Shown in pieces: positions 6,322 through 12,739 of a DNA stretch of 12,739 nt. Within the stretch, counting starts at the first letter, position 1. Each line of letters starts with the position of its first letter. The notes under the pieces were generated by a model, which was not told the origin of the DNA, ran no database searches, and saw nothing but the letters and a program-made list of their open reading frames with translations. The stretch comes from Burkholderiaceae bacterium (GTDB lineage: Bacteria > Pseudomonadota > Gammaproteobacteria > Burkholderiales > Burkholderiaceae_C), in contig JAGOBT010000041.1 of assembly GCA_017999135.1 (NCBI GenBank), forward strand, positions 1-12,739. Direction: 5' to 3'. A program made the position numbers and the translations under genes.

Positions 6322-6345
6322 AAGCGGCGCTGAGCGCCGCTTTTT
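6322..6345 (+). terminator. Intrinsic terminator after the pilin gene
   Basis: A 9-bp GC-rich stem (AAGCGGCGC at 6322-6330 with GCGCCGCTT at 6334-6342) with a TGA loop runs into a T tract at 6341-6345. It lies 41 bases after the pilin stop and just before mshQ, so mshQ and the minor pilin genes either depend on read-through or are made at a lower level than the pilin. Confidence 0.85.
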
Positions 6346-6364
6346 GCGTTCTGGCGCAGGCCAG

Positions 6365-9300
6365 ATGCAGCGCAACATCGCCGGGATGCGCATGCCACGC
6401 CTTCTCGCCGTGTTCTGCTGGGCTGTCCTGTTGCTGGCCGGGCCCGCCAGTGCCGCCAGCTACGACTTCCCCGCAGCGATGCCGGCGGGCTGCAGCGGCA
6501 GCAACGGCAGCTACACCTGCAGCATCACCAGTCTGTCCTGGGGCGACACGGTCAGCATCAGCGGCACCAAGCCGGCCAGCATCACCTTCAGTGGCAATCT
6601 CGACCTCAACAGCGCACGCATCAATCCGTCAGGCAGCGCCAGCGACCTGACCCTGGTGGTGCGCGGCCGGCTCAGGCCCGGCTACCAGGCGGTGGTGAAC
6701 GCCGCCGTGCAAGCCAACGAGATCCATGACGCAGATGGCGCCGTCAGCTTCGGCGGCAGCCTGCGCGCCACGGCCGGCCAGGTCAGCCTGGGCTACCAGA
6801 CCAGCGTGTCCGGCAACATCACCGTCGACGCTGGCAATGCGATCCTGGCCGACCAGGCCGTGGTGCGCGGCCACATCAGCGCCAGCGCGCAGGTGACCAC
6901 GGCCTACCGCAGCCAGGTGGGTGGCGGCATCACGGCCGGCAGCACCATCACCATCGGCCAGGAGACCACCGTGGCTGGCGCCATCGTGGCAGGTGGCAGC
7001 GCCAACATCAGCATCGGCTACGGCGCCACCGTGGTCGGCGACATCCGGGCGCATGCGGGCACGGTCACGTTGGCGCAGGCGGCGGTGGCCAAGGCCTGCG
7101 TGCAGACACTGACCAGCAGCCGGGCCGTCACCCTGGGCCTGCAGGCCACGGTGGCCGGTGTGTGCTGCGGCAACCAGGGCAGTTGCAGCAACAGCTGCGT
7201 GCGCAACAACACCACCGCGGCCATGCCGGCGCTGTGCACGGTGCCGAACGGATCCGGCCTGACCGGCGTCTACTTCAACAACATGACCCTGACCGATCCC
7301 GCCAGCCTCAAGCGCGTGGATGGCACGGTGGGATTCGACTGGGTCAATGCTGCCCCAGCCACAGGCGTGCCGGCCGACCGGTTCAGCATCCGCTGGACAG
7401 GCTTCGTGCGCGTGCCGGTGACCGGCAGCTATCGCTTCCAGACCCGCAGCGACGACGGCGTGCGCCTGTGGGTGAACAGCGTGCAACTGGTGAACAACTG
7501 GACCAACCACGGCGCGACGCTGGACAACAGCAGCGCCATCACGCTCAATGCCGGGGTGGACTACCCCATCACGATGGAGTTCTACGAAAACGGCGGGCAA
7601 GCGGTGGCAGCGCTGCACTGGCTGAGGCCCGGCGATGCGGTCTACACGATCATCCCGCCTGGCACCGCCGACGGTGGCGGGCTGTTCACCGAGGAACAGG
7701 CCCCGCTGATTGCCAGCTACGACTTCAACGAAGCCAGCTACAACGGCACCGCAGGCGAGCTGATCGACGGCGCCGGCTACGGCGGTGGCCCGTTCCACGG
7801 CAAGGCGCAGGGCGCCGCCAGGCCCACCACCGCCAGCAGCACGCCGGCCATCCCCGGCACCCCAGGCACCTGCAGCTACGCCAGCCTGGCGGGCCCGGTC
7901 AACAACGGGCCGGGCTTCATCGTCACCGGCCTGCCGGTGTCCACCGTAGCAGGCGCCAAGACCACGGTGGCGTTCTGGATGTACTGGTCGGGCAGCGGCA
8001 ATGGCATGCCGATCGGCTGGCATCTGCATGACCTGTGGTTCAGCGGCGCGAACTTCGGCTTCAACACGGCGCAGGGCGATGTCCATGGCGTGCCATCGGC
8101 CAGCCTGGCGAAGACCTGGCGGCATGTGGTGGCCGTGTTCACCAATGGCAGCGTCATCGACAACAAGCTCTACATCGACGGCGTGGCCCAGTCGCTCACC
8201 CGGCTCGCAGGCACGCCGAGCACGGCCAACGCGGTGGCCAGCAGCAGCTTGCAGATCGGCGGCTGGGGCGCCAACACCAACTACCGGTTCATCGGTCTGA
8301 TCGACCAGGTGCGGGTGTTCAACGGCGAGCTGACGGCAGGCCAGGTGGCCGCGCTGCACGCCGAGACCGCCCCCTGCCCGCCACCCGCCGGCCCGCACCA
8401 CCTGGAGATCCAGCATGCCAGCGGCACCGGCCTGACCTGCACGCCGTCGACTGTGACGGTCCGGGCCTGCGCCGATGCGGCCTGCAGCAGCGATTACACA
8501 GGCGGCGTGACCGGCACCCTCGGCGCCACCGGCGGCTCCGTGGCCTGGCCGGCGGGCACGGCCTTCAGCATTCCGTCAGGCAGCGGCAGCACCACCATCA
8601 GTGTGCAGGTCACCACCACCACACCCGCCGTGCTGGGCGTGGCCAGCAGCACGCCAGCAGCCTTGAATGCCACCAGCTGCGACTTTGGCAGCCCAGCCTG
8701 CTCCTTCACCGCCGCCGATGCCGGCCTGCTGTTCGACCTGCCCCACCACCGCAGCGACAGCAGCCAGGCCTTCACCGTGCAGGCCGTGCGCAAGAGCGAC
8801 AACGGCCTGGCCTGCACGCCGGCCTTTGCCAATGTCACCCGCAGCGTGACCTTCCGCTGCAGCTACGACAACCCCAGCAGCGGCAGCCTGCCCGCGCGCG
8901 TGGGCGGCAGCGCACTGAACGCCAGCGGCAGCGCGGCGGCCGCCTGCGACGGTGGCGGCCGCGCCGTGAGCCTGGCCTTCAACGCCAGCGGCGTGGCCAG
9001 CACCAGCCTGCAGTACGCCGACGCCGGCCAGCTGACGCTGAGCGCCACCTACACCGGCGGTGCCGCCACCAGCGACACCGGCCTGGTGATGAGCGGCAGC
9101 GACAGCTTCATCGCCGCGCCCGAGCGATTCACCCTGGGCAGCGTCACCGCCGGGCCGATCCGCGCGGGCAGCAGCTTCAGCGCCACCGTGACGGCCCGCA
9201 ACGCCAACGGCGCGGCCACCCCGAACTTCGGCCGCGAGACCGGCGCCGAGACGCTGTACGTCGGCTGGGCACGCCTGCAGCCCACCGGGGGTGGTGCCGC

Positions 9301-10546
9301 CGATGGCAGCTTTTCGGGCAGTTTCGGCAGTTTTGCCAACGGCAGCGCCAGCGCCACCAACCTGGCCTGGACGGAAGTGGGCCGCGGCGACCTGGTGGTG
9401 CGCAGCACCAATGCCGGCGGCTACCTGGGCAGCGGCCTGCTGGCCTATGGCACCAGCGCCGGCAATGCCATCACCTGCGCCAACGAGAACAGCACCTGCG
9501 CGCTGCCAGCCGGCACCACCGCCACGGTGTACTACGGCGAGCGCGGCACCTGGGTGGCCAAGGCCGGGCAGACCGGCAACGTGGCCTGCAACAACCCGAA
9601 CTTCGGCGACCCGCTGGTGGGCGTGCCCAAGAAGTGCCTGTACGTGGCCACCAGCGCCACCAACGGCTCCGTCGGCGACGTGATCCCGCACCGCTTCAGC
9701 GTGGCCGCCAGCCATGCCTGCGGCGCCTTCAGCTACGCCGGCCAGCCCATCCCCACCACGGTGACGGCGCTCAACGCCGCCGGCGGCACCACCGTCAACT
9801 TCAATGGCACGGCCACCACCACCCCCACCTTCGCCCAGGCGGTGACGCTGGCCGACGCCGGCGGCCTGGGCCTGGGCACGCTGTCGGGCGCCAGCATCGC
9901 CGCCAGCGCCTTCAGCGCCGGCGTGGCCAGCGCGTTGCCGAGCTACGCCTTCAGCACCAAGGCCACCGCCCCGCAGAGCCTGGTGCTGCGCGCCAGCAAT
10001 GGCGCCAGCGGCGCCGCCCTGGTCAGCTCGGCCGGCGGCACCGAGCCCACGCTGCCGCTGCGCAGCGGCCGGCTGCGGTTGAGCAACGCCTTCGGCAAGG
10101 CCACGGCCGCGCTGCAGCTGCCGGTGGTGGCCGAGTACTGGGCCGGCAGTGCCTGGCTGCTCAACAGCGCCGACAGCTGTACCGCGCTGGCCGGCGCCAG
10201 CGTGGCCCTGGCCAACCCGCGCGGCGCCACGGGCGCGGCCAGCGCCGCCACCACCAGCGCCGGTGCGCTGGCCATCGGCAGCGGCAACGGCAGCATCACC
10301 CTGGCCGCACCCACCCCGGCCGGCAGCACCCTCAGCCTGGACATCGCCCTCAACCTGGGCAGCACCACTGCCGACCAGTCCTGCAACACCGCCCACCCCG
10401 CCACCACCGGCGCCGCCCTGCCCTGGTTGCGTGCCCAGAACGGCAGCTGCGCCGTGTCGGCCGACCGCGACCCCGCCGCACGCGCCAGCTTCGGCATCTT
10501 TGCCCCGGAAACCCGCAAGACCGTCCATGCACGCGACCTGTACTGA
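6365..10546 (+). CDS. mshQ: MshQ-type giant exported protein with PA14 and LamG-like domains
   Basis: A protein of 1393 residues from the ATG at 6365; ATGs at 6386 and 6392 are also possible, and none has a strong ribosome site. A Sec signal peptide ends at GPASA|AS. After a Cys-containing lead-in, residues about 106-269 are 18-21-residue beta-solenoid-like repeats. Residues 296-433 are a PA14 domain (GLTGVYFNN, TGSYRFQTRSDDGVRLWVN) whose adjacent Asp363-Asp364 match the calcium-binding pair of PA14 lectins. Residues about 448-667 look like a LamG/concanavalin fold (LIASYDFNEAS, KLYIDGVAQ, IDQVRVFN). From about 678 to the end is the MshQ-family DUF6701 region, with Cys-bearing motifs and the ending FGIFAPETRKTVHARDLY. 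The role is inferred: a large surface or pilus-tip protein, possibly glycan-binding. It follows the terminator and overlaps mshC by 20 bases. Function in this family is not established. Confidence 0.85.
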   Translation: MQRNIAGMRMPRLLAVFCWAVLLLAGPASAASYDFPAAMPAGCSGSNGSYTCSITSLSWGDTVSISGTKPASITFSGNLDLNSARINPSGSASDLTLVVRGRLRPGYQAVVNAAVQANEIHDADGAVSFGGSLRATAGQVSLGYQTSVSGNITVDAGNAILADQAVVRGHISASAQVTTAYRSQVGGGITAGSTITIGQETTVAGAIVAGGSANISIGYGATVVGDIRAHAGTVTLAQAAVAKACVQTLTSSRAVTLGLQATVAGVCCGNQGSCSNSCVRNNTTAAMPALCTVPNGSGLTGVYFNNMTLTDPASLKRVDGTVGFDWVNAAPATGVPADRFSIRWTGFVRVPVTGSYRFQTRSDDGVRLWVNSVQLVNNWTNHGATLDNSSAITLNAGVDYPITMEFYENGGQAVAALHWLRPGDAVYTIIPPGTADGGGLFTEEQAPLIASYDFNEASYNGTAGELIDGAGYGGGPFHGKAQGAARPTTASSTPAIPGTPGTCSYASLAGPVNNGPGFIVTGLPVSTVAGAKTTVAFWMYWSGSGNGMPIGWHLHDLWFSGANFGFNTAQGDVHGVPSASLAKTWRHVVAVFTNGSVIDNKLYIDGVAQSLTRLAGTPSTANAVASSSLQIGGWGANTNYRFIGLIDQVRVFNGELTAGQVAALHAETAPCPPPAGPHHLEIQHASGTGLTCTPSTVTVRACADAACSSDYTGGVTGTLGATGGSVAWPAGTAFSIPSGSGSTTISVQVTTTTPAVLGVASSTPAALNATSCDFGSPACSFTAADAGLLFDLPHHRSDSSQAFTVQAVRKSDNGLACTPAFANVTRSVTFRCSYDNPSSGSLPARVGGSALNASGSAAAACDGGGRAVSLAFNASGVASTSLQYADAGQLTLSATYTGGAATSDTGLVMSGSDSFIAAPERFTLGSVTAGPIRAGSSFSATVTARNANGAATPNFGRETGAETLYVGWARLQPTGGGAADGSFSGSFGSFANGSASATNLAWTEVGRGDLVVRSTNAGGYLGSGLLAYGTSAGNAITCANENSTCALPAGTTATVYYGERGTWVAKAGQTGNVACNNPNFGDPLVGVPKKCLYVATSATNGSVGDVIPHRFSVAASHACGAFSYAGQPIPTTVTALNAAGGTTVNFNGTATTTPTFAQAVTLADAGGLGLGTLSGASIAASAFSAGVASALPSYAFSTKATAPQSLVLRASNGASGAALVSSAGGTEPTLPLRSGRLRLSNAFGKATAALQLPVVAEYWAGSAWLLNSADSCTALAGASVALANPRGATGAASAATTSAGALAIGSGNGSITLAAPTPAGSTLSLDIALNLGSTTADQSCNTAHPATTGAALPWLRAQNGSCAVSADRDPAARASFGIFAPETRKTVHARDLY
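6680..7171 (+). repeat. Beta-solenoid-like repeats in the N-terminal part of MshQ
   Basis: At the protein level about seven degenerate units of 18-21 residues occur, with the pattern G-x-x-(T/A)-x-V-x-G-x-I-x-A, for example GYQTSVSGNITVDAG, GQETTVAGAIVAGG and GYGATVVGDIRAHAG. The alternation of hydrophobic residues and Gly suggests a right-handed beta-helix or bactofilin-like stack, suited to a rigid stalk. The DNA itself is not an obvious tandem repeat. Confidence 0.65.
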
Positions 10547-11024: not shown

Positions 11025-11493
11025 GCGCCGCCGCGCCCGCTCCAGCCGGCCCGCGTGCCGCGGCTTCAGCCTGCCCGAGGCGCTGCTGGCCATCGTCGTC
11101 ATCGGCGTGGGGCTCACCGGCGTGCTGGCGGCCTTTGGCAGCGTCACCCGCCACAGCGCCGACCCGGTGGTGCACAAGCAGATGATCGCCGTGGCGCAAG
11201 AGCTGCTGGAGGAGATCCAGCTCAAGCCCTACGCGGTGGCCGCGCACACCGCCCCCGCCGGCTGCGCCCGCGACACCTTCAACGACGTGCGCGACTACAA
11301 CGGCTACAGCAGCACCGGCGTGTGCACCGTGGACGGCGTGGCCATCCCGGCGCTGGCCGGCCTGCAGGTGCGCGCCACCGTGGCCACCGGCACGCTGGGC
11401 GGCGTGGGCGCCGCGCTGAAGATCACCATCACCGTGCAGGCCGACGGACAGACGCTGTCGCTGGTGGGTTGGCGCACGGACTACGCGTCATGA
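11014..11493 (+). CDS. mshD: MshD minor pilin
   Basis: A 159-residue prepilin-like protein that starts 11 bases before the mshC stop, with a good ribosome site (GGGGAGA, 11001-11007) 7 bases upstream. The leader is 17 residues, ending ACRG|FSLPE. Glu is at mature position 5 and the helix reads ALLAIVVIGVGLTGVLAAFG. MshD-family traits are the block DPVVHKQMIAVAQELLEEI after the helix, a Cys-flanked FNDVRDYNGY segment and the ending LVGWRTDYAS. It resembles GspI/PilV-type minor pilins, which nucleate the tip complex. It shares the ATGA overlap with mshO (11490-11493). Nothing looks damaged. Confidence 0.87.
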   Translation: MCTERRRARSSRPACRGFSLPEALLAIVVIGVGLTGVLAAFGSVTRHSADPVVHKQMIAVAQELLEEIQLKPYAVAAHTAPAGCARDTFNDVRDYNGYSSTGVCTVDGVAIPALAGLQVRATVATGTLGGVGAALKITITVQADGQTLSLVGWRTDYAS

Positions 11494-12353
11494 AGCACCA
11501 CGCCCCCGCCCGACGCCGCGGCTTCACCTTGGTGGAGCTGATCGTCACGCTGGTGCTGTTCGGCCTGATGGGCGCCACGCTGGTGGTGTTTCTGCGGCCG
11601 GCGGTCGACAGCTGGCTGGCGGTGCGCACCCGCGCCGCGCTGGCGTCGGACGCCGACCACGCACTGCGCCGCATGCTGCGCGATGTGCGCGCCGCGGTGC
11701 CCAATTCCATCCGCACGCCGAACACGCAGTGCTTCGAGCTGGTGCCCACCGGCGGCGGCGGGCGCTACCGCATGGCGGCCGATGGCGTGACGGCCGGCAG
11801 CGCGCCGGCCGACCCCCAGGTGGCCACCACGCAGTTCGACGTGTTCAGCAACCTGCAGCCGCTGCCGGCGGTGGGCGACTGGGTGGTGGTGGACAACCAG
11901 AACCCGGGCGACGTGTACAGCGGCACCAACCGCAGCGCCATCACCGCACTGGCCACGCCGGCCGCGGCGCACGGGCGGCACCGGCTGTCGATCGATGCGC
12001 TGCAATTCCCGCTGGGCTACGAGGGCGGCCGCTTCACCTGGGTGCCCGACAGCCAGAAGGCGGTGTTCTACGCCTGCAGCGGCGCCAGCGCCACGCTGGA
12101 CGGCAACGGCGACGCGCCCGGCGTGCTGGTGCGCCTGAAGGACTACGGCTTCAACGCCACGGCCCCCACCAGTTGCCCGGCGGTGAACGGGGCCGACGTG
12201 CTGGCCACCGGCGTGCGCAGCTGCCGCTTCCTCTACAACGCCAACCAGGGCGCCACCCAGCAGAGCGGCTTCGTGTCGCTGCAGATCGAGCTGACGCGCA
12301 ACAACGAGACCGCCAGCCTGGTGCTGGGGGCCCATGTGAGCAACGTGCCATGA
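11490..12353 (+). CDS. mshO: MshO minor pilin (GspJ/PilW-like)
   Basis: A 287-residue prepilin-like protein. The ATG at 11490 overlaps the mshD stop by 4 bases. The leader is MKHHAPARRRG (11 residues), then FTLVE with Glu at mature position 5 and a helix LIVTLVLFGLMGATLVVFL. The next segment, RPAVDSWLAVRTRAALASDA then ALRRMLRDVRAAVPNSIRT, is characteristic of MshO. The long C-terminal domain has a set of cysteines (FYACSG, TSCPAV, SCRFLYN) and ends IELTRNNETASLVLGAHVSN. It is larger than the other minor pilins, as expected for the GspJ/PilW-like component of a tip complex. No clear ribosome site lies before it, so it is likely coupled to mshD. Its stop overlaps the mshP start (ATGA at 12350-12353). 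Confidence 0.9.
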   Translation: MKHHAPARRRGFTLVELIVTLVLFGLMGATLVVFLRPAVDSWLAVRTRAALASDADHALRRMLRDVRAAVPNSIRTPNTQCFELVPTGGGGRYRMAADGVTAGSAPADPQVATTQFDVFSNLQPLPAVGDWVVVDNQNPGDVYSGTNRSAITALATPAAAHGRHRLSIDALQFPLGYEGGRFTWVPDSQKAVFYACSGASATLDGNGDAPGVLVRLKDYGFNATAPTSCPAVNGADVLATGVRSCRFLYNANQGATQQSGFVSLQIELTRNNETASLVLGAHVSNVP

Positions 12354-12739
12354 ACAACATGGTGCGCAGCGGAGCGGCGCGGGACGAGCGCCGGGCCGCC
12401 ATCGGCCAGAGGCCGATGGCCTTTCGCAGGCACAGACAGTCCGCAGGGACTGTCTGTGTCCGGCTCCAGCTCACCAAGCCGGCCCGCCATCCCCTCGGGG
12501 GATCGGCCGACGTACCCGTCGGCCGAGGGGCACCGTCCCGAGGTCTGGGGGCCATCGCGGTGATCGTGGTGCTGGTGCTGCTGGCCACGGTGGCGGCGGC
12601 GGTGGTGCGCTTTGGCCAGCAGGGCCAGACCATGGTGCAGCAGGATGTGCAGGGCCTGCGCGCCAGCGCTGCCGCACGCGCCGGCATCGAATGGGGCCTG
12701 TACCAGGCGCTGAAGGGCGGCTGGACCAGCTGCAACGGC
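12350..12739 (+). CDS. mshP: MshP-like minor pilin, 3' end outside the window, leader enlarged by an insertion
   Basis: The reading frame is open from the ATG at 12350, which overlaps the mshO stop as ATGA, to the window edge: 130 residues, incomplete. The recognisable MshP/PilX-like part begins at RG|LGAIAVIVVLVLLATVA (residues 64-82), followed by TMVQQDVQGLRASAAARAG and IEWGLYQALKGG, typical of MshP. Mature position 5 is Ala, not Glu, as in other PilX/GspK-like minor pilins. The 60 or so residues before RG are Arg/Pro-rich and unlike any pilin leader. They coincide with a hairpin-rich DNA insert (about 12362-12541) carrying AGG, AGA, ACT and TGT codons. The next possible start, ATG at 12416, would still leave a 43-residue leader, and no ATG/GTG/TTG lies between there and the hydrophobic segment. 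Either MshP tolerates a 65-residue leader or the gene is impaired. Confidence 0.75.
   Translation, partial: MNNMVRSGAARDERRAAIGQRPMAFRRHRQSAGTVCVRLQLTKPARHPLGGSADVPVGRGAPSRGLGAIAVIVVLVLLATVAAAVVRFGQQGQTMVQQDVQGLRASAAARAGIEWGLYQALKGGWTSCNG
12362..12541. repeat. Palindrome-rich insert within the 5' end of mshP
   Basis: Four hairpins in 160 bases: 12375-12380/12388-12393 (6 bp); 12398-12407/12411-12420 (10 bp, loop AGA); 12431-12442/12447-12458 (CACAGACAGTCC with its exact complement, 12 bp, loop GCAG); and 12504-12512/12517-12525 (9 bp, loop TACC), flanked by CCCCT 12491-12495 and AGGGG 12526-12530. A 7-base inverted pair CGGGACG (12380-12386) and CGTCCCG (12534-12540) brackets the block and may mark its ends. 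By hand count 13 of 58 codons read through it end in A/T, against 5 of the next 65. This looks like a small REP/MITE-like palindromic element. I cannot tell which family, or whether it recurs in the genome. No transposase and no clear target duplication is seen. Confidence 0.7.

Follow-up and report, generated by a model that had tools for sequence, protein, structure and literature searches.

Short palindromic repeats that lie in frame within protein-coding genes are already known, and the question they raise is why coding sequence tolerates them. The RPEs of Rickettsia are described as such repeats within conserved protein genes, and at least one case, in gmk, is reported as shown to be translated (PMC2229807). 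The same question arises at the mshP gene of a Burkholderiaceae bacterium, where palindromic DNA lies in frame between the start codon and the mature part of the encoded minor pilin. The window analyzed here is the whole stretch of 12,739 nucleotides (contig JAGOBT010000041.1, forward strand) at whose end this gene lies.

The mshP Locus

The upstream minor pilin gene mshO (11490..12353, + strand), which contains an N_methyl motif, has a stop codon that overlaps the mshP start. The mshP ATG at 12350-12352 shares bases with the mshO TGA at 12351-12353, which agrees with the coupled ATGA start at 12350 proposed in the sequence-only reading of this DNA. The mshP frame (12350..12739, + strand) is open for 130 codons up to the contig end at 12739, and the gene is thus partial. 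In this frame, 65 residues (MNNMVRSGAARDERRAA...KPARHPLGGSADVPVGRGAPSRG) precede LGAIAVIVV with no intervening stop, and mature MshP, from its hydrophobic helix onwards, begins at 12545 (12545..12739, + strand, partial), as had also been read. The RG|LGAIA site was aligned by eye with the MshP proteins of relatives, and a Pfam search of the window MshP protein matched no family. Codons that had been singled out as rare (AGG twice, AGA, ACT, and TGT) are present in the mshP frame.

The mshP start and first codons (12350..12366, + strand) are taken as the original leader start from the mshP genes of relatives, with an inferred boundary. A long variant of a palindromic repeat follows in frame as leader residues (12367..12531, + strand; 5′ boundary approximate). 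The earlier proposal of an in-frame insert holds, but its limits of 12362-12541 are better placed at about 12367-12531, as inferred from other copies.

A Dispersed Repeat in Aquabacterium-like Burkholderiales

A search of the organism's own genome (an assembly of 3.80 Mb in 633 contigs, 71% complete) with 12350-12560 finds seven further places at E <= 2.8e-15, so the mshP insert is not a chance sequence. With a consensus query, the same genome gives 18 rows at E <= 0.01, two of which are halves of the window copy. The repeat is present in 25 of 80 genomes at E <= 1e-6, own genome included. Within the genus, 19 of 21 genomes carry it, as do 6 of 27 in the family's other genera, whereas 0 of 32 outside the family do. 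Copy numbers are lower bounds, since about 11 candidates were scored per genome. The genus, to which the own genome is assigned, appears to belong to the Aquabacterium-like Burkholderiales. A pattern scan of named genomes returns at least 119 stretches, and the genera among the 80 matches listed include Aquabacterium, Methylibium, Piscinibacter, Rhizobacter, Rubrivivax, Ideonella, Sphaerotilus, and Pelomonas/Roseateles. The BLASTN-type check suggested beforehand thus recovered copies both in the own genome and in congeners, and the insert belongs to a family of dispersed palindromic repeats of a presumably mobile type.

An 86-nt query matched nothing in plasmid and phage records at E 1e-5. The search for a mobilizing enzyme covered Y1_Tnp and found none: this domain is absent from 8 of the 21 genus genomes, own genome included, and 7 of those 8 carry the repeat. 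Some of the Y1_Tnp-lacking assemblies are incomplete and others are 99-100% complete, and a RAYT as universal partner is ruled out by these eight genomes. Target-site duplication, a mark of MITEs (non-autonomous transposons), was looked for in 66 copies, and none that is consistent beyond ATG(A) was found; when their 5′/3′ ATG-context pairs are compared with shuffled pairs, the excess is confined to isolated positions (z 3.4 at +4, 2.4 at +8, and 2.9 at -2).

Repeat Architecture

The usual element is approximately 80-91 nt long and consists of a variable arm, the core CGCCGGGCCGCYCCCAAG, a matching arm, ATCCCCTCGGGGGAT, a variable palindrome, and the end CGAGGGGC; copies across the family measure approximately 80-165 nt. 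That the usual element is short follows from the own-genome copies, in which parts of window 12370-12400 are joined directly to 12469/12474-12531 or slightly beyond. The window copy contains the 5′ arm and first part of the core (CGGGACGAG CGCCGGGCCGC; 12380..12399, + strand), an extra core-loop module with two hairpins (12400..12475, + strand), and the core end AAG with the 3′ arm CCGGCCCGC (12476..12488, + strand). These are followed by a local hairpin ATCCCC/GGGGAT (12489-12503, + strand), the variable palindrome (12504..12525, + strand), and the conserved, Shine-Dalgarno-like end CCGAGGGGC (12523..12531, + strand). There is no start codon 4 nt past CCGAGGGGC in this copy, which instead has ACCG and then TCC. 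By hand count, the extra module adds a net 72 nt to the short form on contig C21 of the same genome, and the reading frame is therefore kept.

Four strong hairpins had been noted in the insert and all were located, including hairpin 1 (CCATCGGCC/GGCCGATGG, 12399-12419), hairpin 2 (CACAGACAGTCC/GGACTGTCTGTG, 12431-12458), and hairpin 4 (CGGCCGACG/CGTCGGCCG, 12504-12525). The predicted RNA fold of 12340-12560 has an energy of -135.6 kcal/mol versus -104.8 +/- 5.4 for 200 dinucleotide shuffles (z = -5.75), none of which is as stable. Four short copies folded singly give z values of -0.43, -1.52, -3.05, and +0.25 against shuffles; three of the four are no more stable than shuffles, and the idea that short copies are unusually stable RNAs was rejected.

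Larger arrangements also occur. At locus L013 of the own genome (G000:C235, approximately 640-780), a related palindromic module (GGCAGGCGCCAGACAGTCC...GGACTGTCC) occurs twice in tandem, and this module type is also nested within the window copy. Head-to-tail repeat pairs approximately 88-90 nt apart are seen at L032 (G020:C23), L193, L223, L236, and L266.

Phasing to Start Codons

A first sample of 97 non-redundant copies with a 3′ end was drawn from 146 loci chosen by consensus similarity, with genes called using a codon model trained on the window. Both flanking genes run along the repeat in 88 copies and against it in 7; of the other two copies, one has convergent neighbors and one has divergent neighbors. 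Among the 88, the first in-frame start is exactly 4 nt past CGAGGGGC in 66 copies and elsewhere in 22. The pattern is also visible free of gene calling: 63 ATG and 7 GTG/TTG codons stand at offset 4 in the 97 copies, whereas control CGAGG sites outside repeats have ATG at offset 4 in 6 of 1643 cases and at other offsets in 1-40. In a second sample, from named genomes, 37 of 55 copies have both genes on their own strand and 23 of these 37 have the start at +4; the remainder comprises 7 reversed copies, 6 called convergent, 2 divergent, and 3 at a contig end. Locus L264, a derivative without the middle hairpins, keeps the 4-nt spacing when read by eye.

One hundred copies have a start at +3 to +9, and the genes downstream of them fall into 91 families. 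With one copy taken per family, the start is at +4 in 83 of the 91, and this regularity offers a testable answer to why coding sequence tolerates the repeat, namely that the repeat would exploit stop-restart translation. From these placements, it is likely that a dispersed palindromic repeat occupies translation-start regions inside operons. What appears new here is a repeat family phased to translation starts; a literature search, largely outside subscription journals, recognized no account of this family or of start-phased repeats.

Start phasing is mostly absent from related repeats that lack the canonical end. These have both genes on their own strand in 16 of 61 cases, and many of those with titles shown come from Roseateles/Pelomonas. 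Many of these 61 copies (L188-L306) are longer, with an added hairpin (GGCGATGTGCTTGCGGC...GCCGCAAGCATCGCC), and most lie off co-directional junctions.

Two explanations of the phasing merit closer consideration. The first, held at slightly under an even chance, is that these repeats are mobile mini-cistrons with start codons as their homing site. Each would insert at a start, duplicate or supply an ATG, and bring a stop-free palindromic body and its own ribosome site, after which the host gene would restart or be extended in frame. The second, which is possible but somewhat doubtful, is that an RPE-like repeat inserts randomly, that mainly copies at operon junctions survive where expression is kept, and that the 4-nt Shine-Dalgarno spacing is selected later. 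The CGAGGGGC end does resemble a Shine-Dalgarno sequence, and the +4 spacing puts its GAGG at the usual distance from ATG, as later selection would favor. The new start also lies inside the native frame at two loci, 4 codons further in for fabZ and 2 codons further in for a HIT-protein gene, which indicates that a start can be remade after insertion. Random insertion, however, fits poorly with the scarcity of convergent sites, where selection would be weakest: they make up 1 of 97 and 6 of 55 copies, and three of the latter six have ATG at +4 and may be miscalled. It would also require that an ATG was remade at one fixed place in most of the 91 families, which amounts to many parallel changes.

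The accD gene of G006 preserves both sides of an insertion. Its left flank has a Shine-Dalgarno sequence and ATGAGT at the expected native start position, and its right side retains the native coding start, so that ATGAGT stands on both sides. The start codon behind an inserted repeat may be a duplicate, may have come with the element, or may have been rebuilt afterwards.

A Short Frame through the Repeat

An ATG located 11-47 nt upstream of the core opens a frame across the whole repeat in most copies; this frame is usually approximately 35 codons long and usually stops on the next start codon. Of the 100 copies whose start falls at +3 to +9, an ATG-initiated frame (phase given relative to the gene) spans the repeat in phase 2 only in 57, phase 1 only in 11, phase 0 only in 11, and two phases in 8, while 13 have none. 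The stop takes the form of ATGA on the start or of TGACATG when the phase differs. In the 79 single-phase copies, phase 2 goes with ATGA (55/57 versus 10/22; Fisher p = 8.5e-7) and phase 1 goes with TGA at -4 (8/11 versus 6/68; Fisher p = 1.5e-5), with both p-values uncorrected for relatedness. Counted per gene family, 55 of 62 ATGA-type copies with a spanning frame stop exactly there (p 1.8e-19 against a chance of one third, a null that is somewhat too low since two-phase copies are included). Over the final 79 nt, each of the three forward frames is free of stops in 98-99 of the 100 copies, related copies not being independent.

This match between stop context and frame would be difficult to account for if the short frame went untranslated or its stop were of no consequence. 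Ribosomes would enter at the original start, read across the stop-free hairpins to give peptides of the RAERRAAPKPAR type, terminate at ATGA or TGACATG, and begin again on the gene via GAGGGG. Such stop-restart would allow the repeat to spread without silencing its host gene. If this is true, annotation misses short translated frames and assigns wrong N-termini in the in-frame cases.

The same features could belong to a regulatory leader, an attenuator or translational switch kept for its function and not a mobile repeat, although this is unlikely. It would account for the coupled short frame with its stop-start overlap and for conserved hairpins with compensatory changes. Pairing was scored over 86 distinct 43-mers: 97.5% of cells pair in the local hairpin, which has 9 compensatory cells, and 89.0% pair in the variable palindrome, which has 61 compensatory cells changed on both sides. 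By contrast, a helix that could mask the Shine-Dalgarno end has no compensatory changes in the same 43-mers, although 94% of it is paired. Masking by CCCCTCG is possible, but the folds of five copies disagree on its partner, and it was set aside as a candidate. A regulatory leader is also at odds with the 91 gene families found downstream of 100 copies, the absence of Rfam matches reaching the gathering score in 8 sources, the variable presence of the repeat between congeneric genomes at six loci compared, and a peptide frame that differs at an apparently orthologous permease site.

Relation to Known Repeats and Translational Coupling

An ATGA overlap is a typical site of translational coupling. 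In coupling, translation of one gene promotes that of its co-oriented neighbor (PMC12548453), whereas here a dispersed repeat would take the place of a host gene as the upstream cistron.

The sequence-only reading had likened the insert to RPEs. The likeness is one of behavior only: both are many-copy palindromic repeats that lie in frame in protein genes, here at mshP and gspI, where relatives have empty sites. RPEs are 105-146 bp long with 12-bp inverted ends, and the account in PMC2229807, as far as it was available, describes neither start-codon phasing nor a stop-restart arrangement; their hosts are Rickettsia, while those of the present repeat are Burkholderiales. Enterobacterial RU-2/YPAL, RU-1/ERIC, and the 107-bp Correia element are further small repeats with open frames fused to genes (PMC2229807), and in-frame fusion to genes is described for RPE, RU, and Correia repeats (PMC2229807, PMC2759123). 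For RU-2/YPAL, RU-1/ERIC, and Correia repeats, the available part of PMC2229807 gives no fixed start-codon spacing, and its examples include C-terminal fusions. REPs, which are associated with RAYTs, are likewise many-copy palindromes, but they are 20-40 bp long and, by their name, extragenic (PMC3733652), whereas the present copies measure approximately 80-165 nt and occur in genus genomes that lack Y1_Tnp.

In-Frame Fusions

In 11 of the 88 co-directional copies, an open frame runs from an upstream start into the gene with no start at +3 to +9. The upstream start is GTG or TTG in three of these fusions. Two others, L044 and L111, have an ATG at +4 in another frame and may not be true fusions. 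The fused genes include mshP, gspI, a CoaBC-like gene (L143), and a LivH-like permease gene, the last two named by eye. The gspI gene, on contig C21 of the own genome, encodes a second prepilin, a T2SSI-type pseudopilin, whose leader of 33 residues (MRCATRDERRAAPKPARDPLGGSAGVPAGRGAG|GFTLVE) includes the repeat, read in the frame that mshP uses; the protein after the insert matches T2SSI (E 2.2e-11) and N_methyl (E 5.9e-7). A repeat peptide joined to a pilin start is clear in 1 of 21 genus genomes, in this gspI, and a row from G002 is weaker. In mshP and gspI, the frame runs on into the gene and the prepilin leader is thereby lengthened; the longer leader would be removed by prepilin peptidase. 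If so, these natural long leaders probe the leader length that prepilin peptidase accepts.

The permease gene is filled in two genomes, the own genome (G000, L014) and G018 (L141), at apparently orthologous sites. The repeat is kept as DNA and read in different frames, giving the peptides RDERRAAPKPARIPSGDRPPYPAGEG and GPSAGPPQAGPHPPGGSTGVPGGRGA, which indicates that the repeat peptide itself is not conserved. Leader cleavage had been put forward as the way in which the repeat survives, but it does not generalize: most copies examined are unfused and start-phased with a stop-restart arrangement, and fusions also occur in the non-pilin permease and CoaBC-like genes. The prepilin leader therefore appears to be one tolerant place among several.

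Empty and Filled Sites in Relatives

MshO is detected in 11 of the 21 genus genomes, own genome included. Nine relatives' mshP genes have a similarly coupled ATG and leaders of 7-30 residues with no repeat, which was the outcome anticipated for an inserted block; the comparison covers nine readable mshO/mshP junctions, with G010 (L083) left out because the motifs missed it. The empty site of G008, for example, encodes the leader MTPPRLSLPARG|LGAVAVIVV.

Other loci vary in the same manner. The repeat is present at fabZ in 2 of the 19 genomes where the gene was found, at sdhB in 2 of 15 loci read (G011 and G009; L176-L178, missed by the motifs, excluded), and at accD in 2 of 19 loci read (L345 and L346 excluded for the same reason). 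A third accD flag, L361, was false and reflects the unrelated CCGGGCCGC. The HIT-protein gene is filled at 1 of 19 loci, and gspI at 1 of 18, in the own genome only, with a motif that sometimes matched a neighboring pilin gene as well; the empty gspI site of G006 reads MTRAG|GFTLVE. A reversed repeat lies at what by eye seems to be the same gene junction in L030, L048, and L056 (G000, G010, and G002), which suggests that some insertions are probably old and vertically kept. At the sdhA-sdhB junction of the own genome (L169, G000:C244), a different palindromic repeat (CCCCCTCAAGGGGG...) is found, while G009 and G011 carry the start-phased repeat there.

An assembly error or a pseudogene is very improbable. 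The assembly is fragmented and incomplete, and mshP runs off its contig, but an exact 18-base search of 321 loci finds the same long variant in one other genome, G013 (L051). The mature part of mshP is also open and close to that of G008, with 9 synonymous and 7 non-synonymous codon differences over 65 codons; the resulting dN of 0.062 and dS of 0.209 indicate that mshP has stayed under constraint. A native extended N-terminal domain of MshP, to which the 65 leader residues in an open frame might point, is next to inconceivable given the empty sites in nine relatives, the repetition of the insert DNA elsewhere, and the apparently orthologous permease genes that keep the repeat DNA in different frames.

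Elsewhere in the msh locus, window 6344-10546 contains a 1400-codon open frame with TTG as its first start. It is far longer than its neighbors, and its position leads us to assume that it is MshQ-like.
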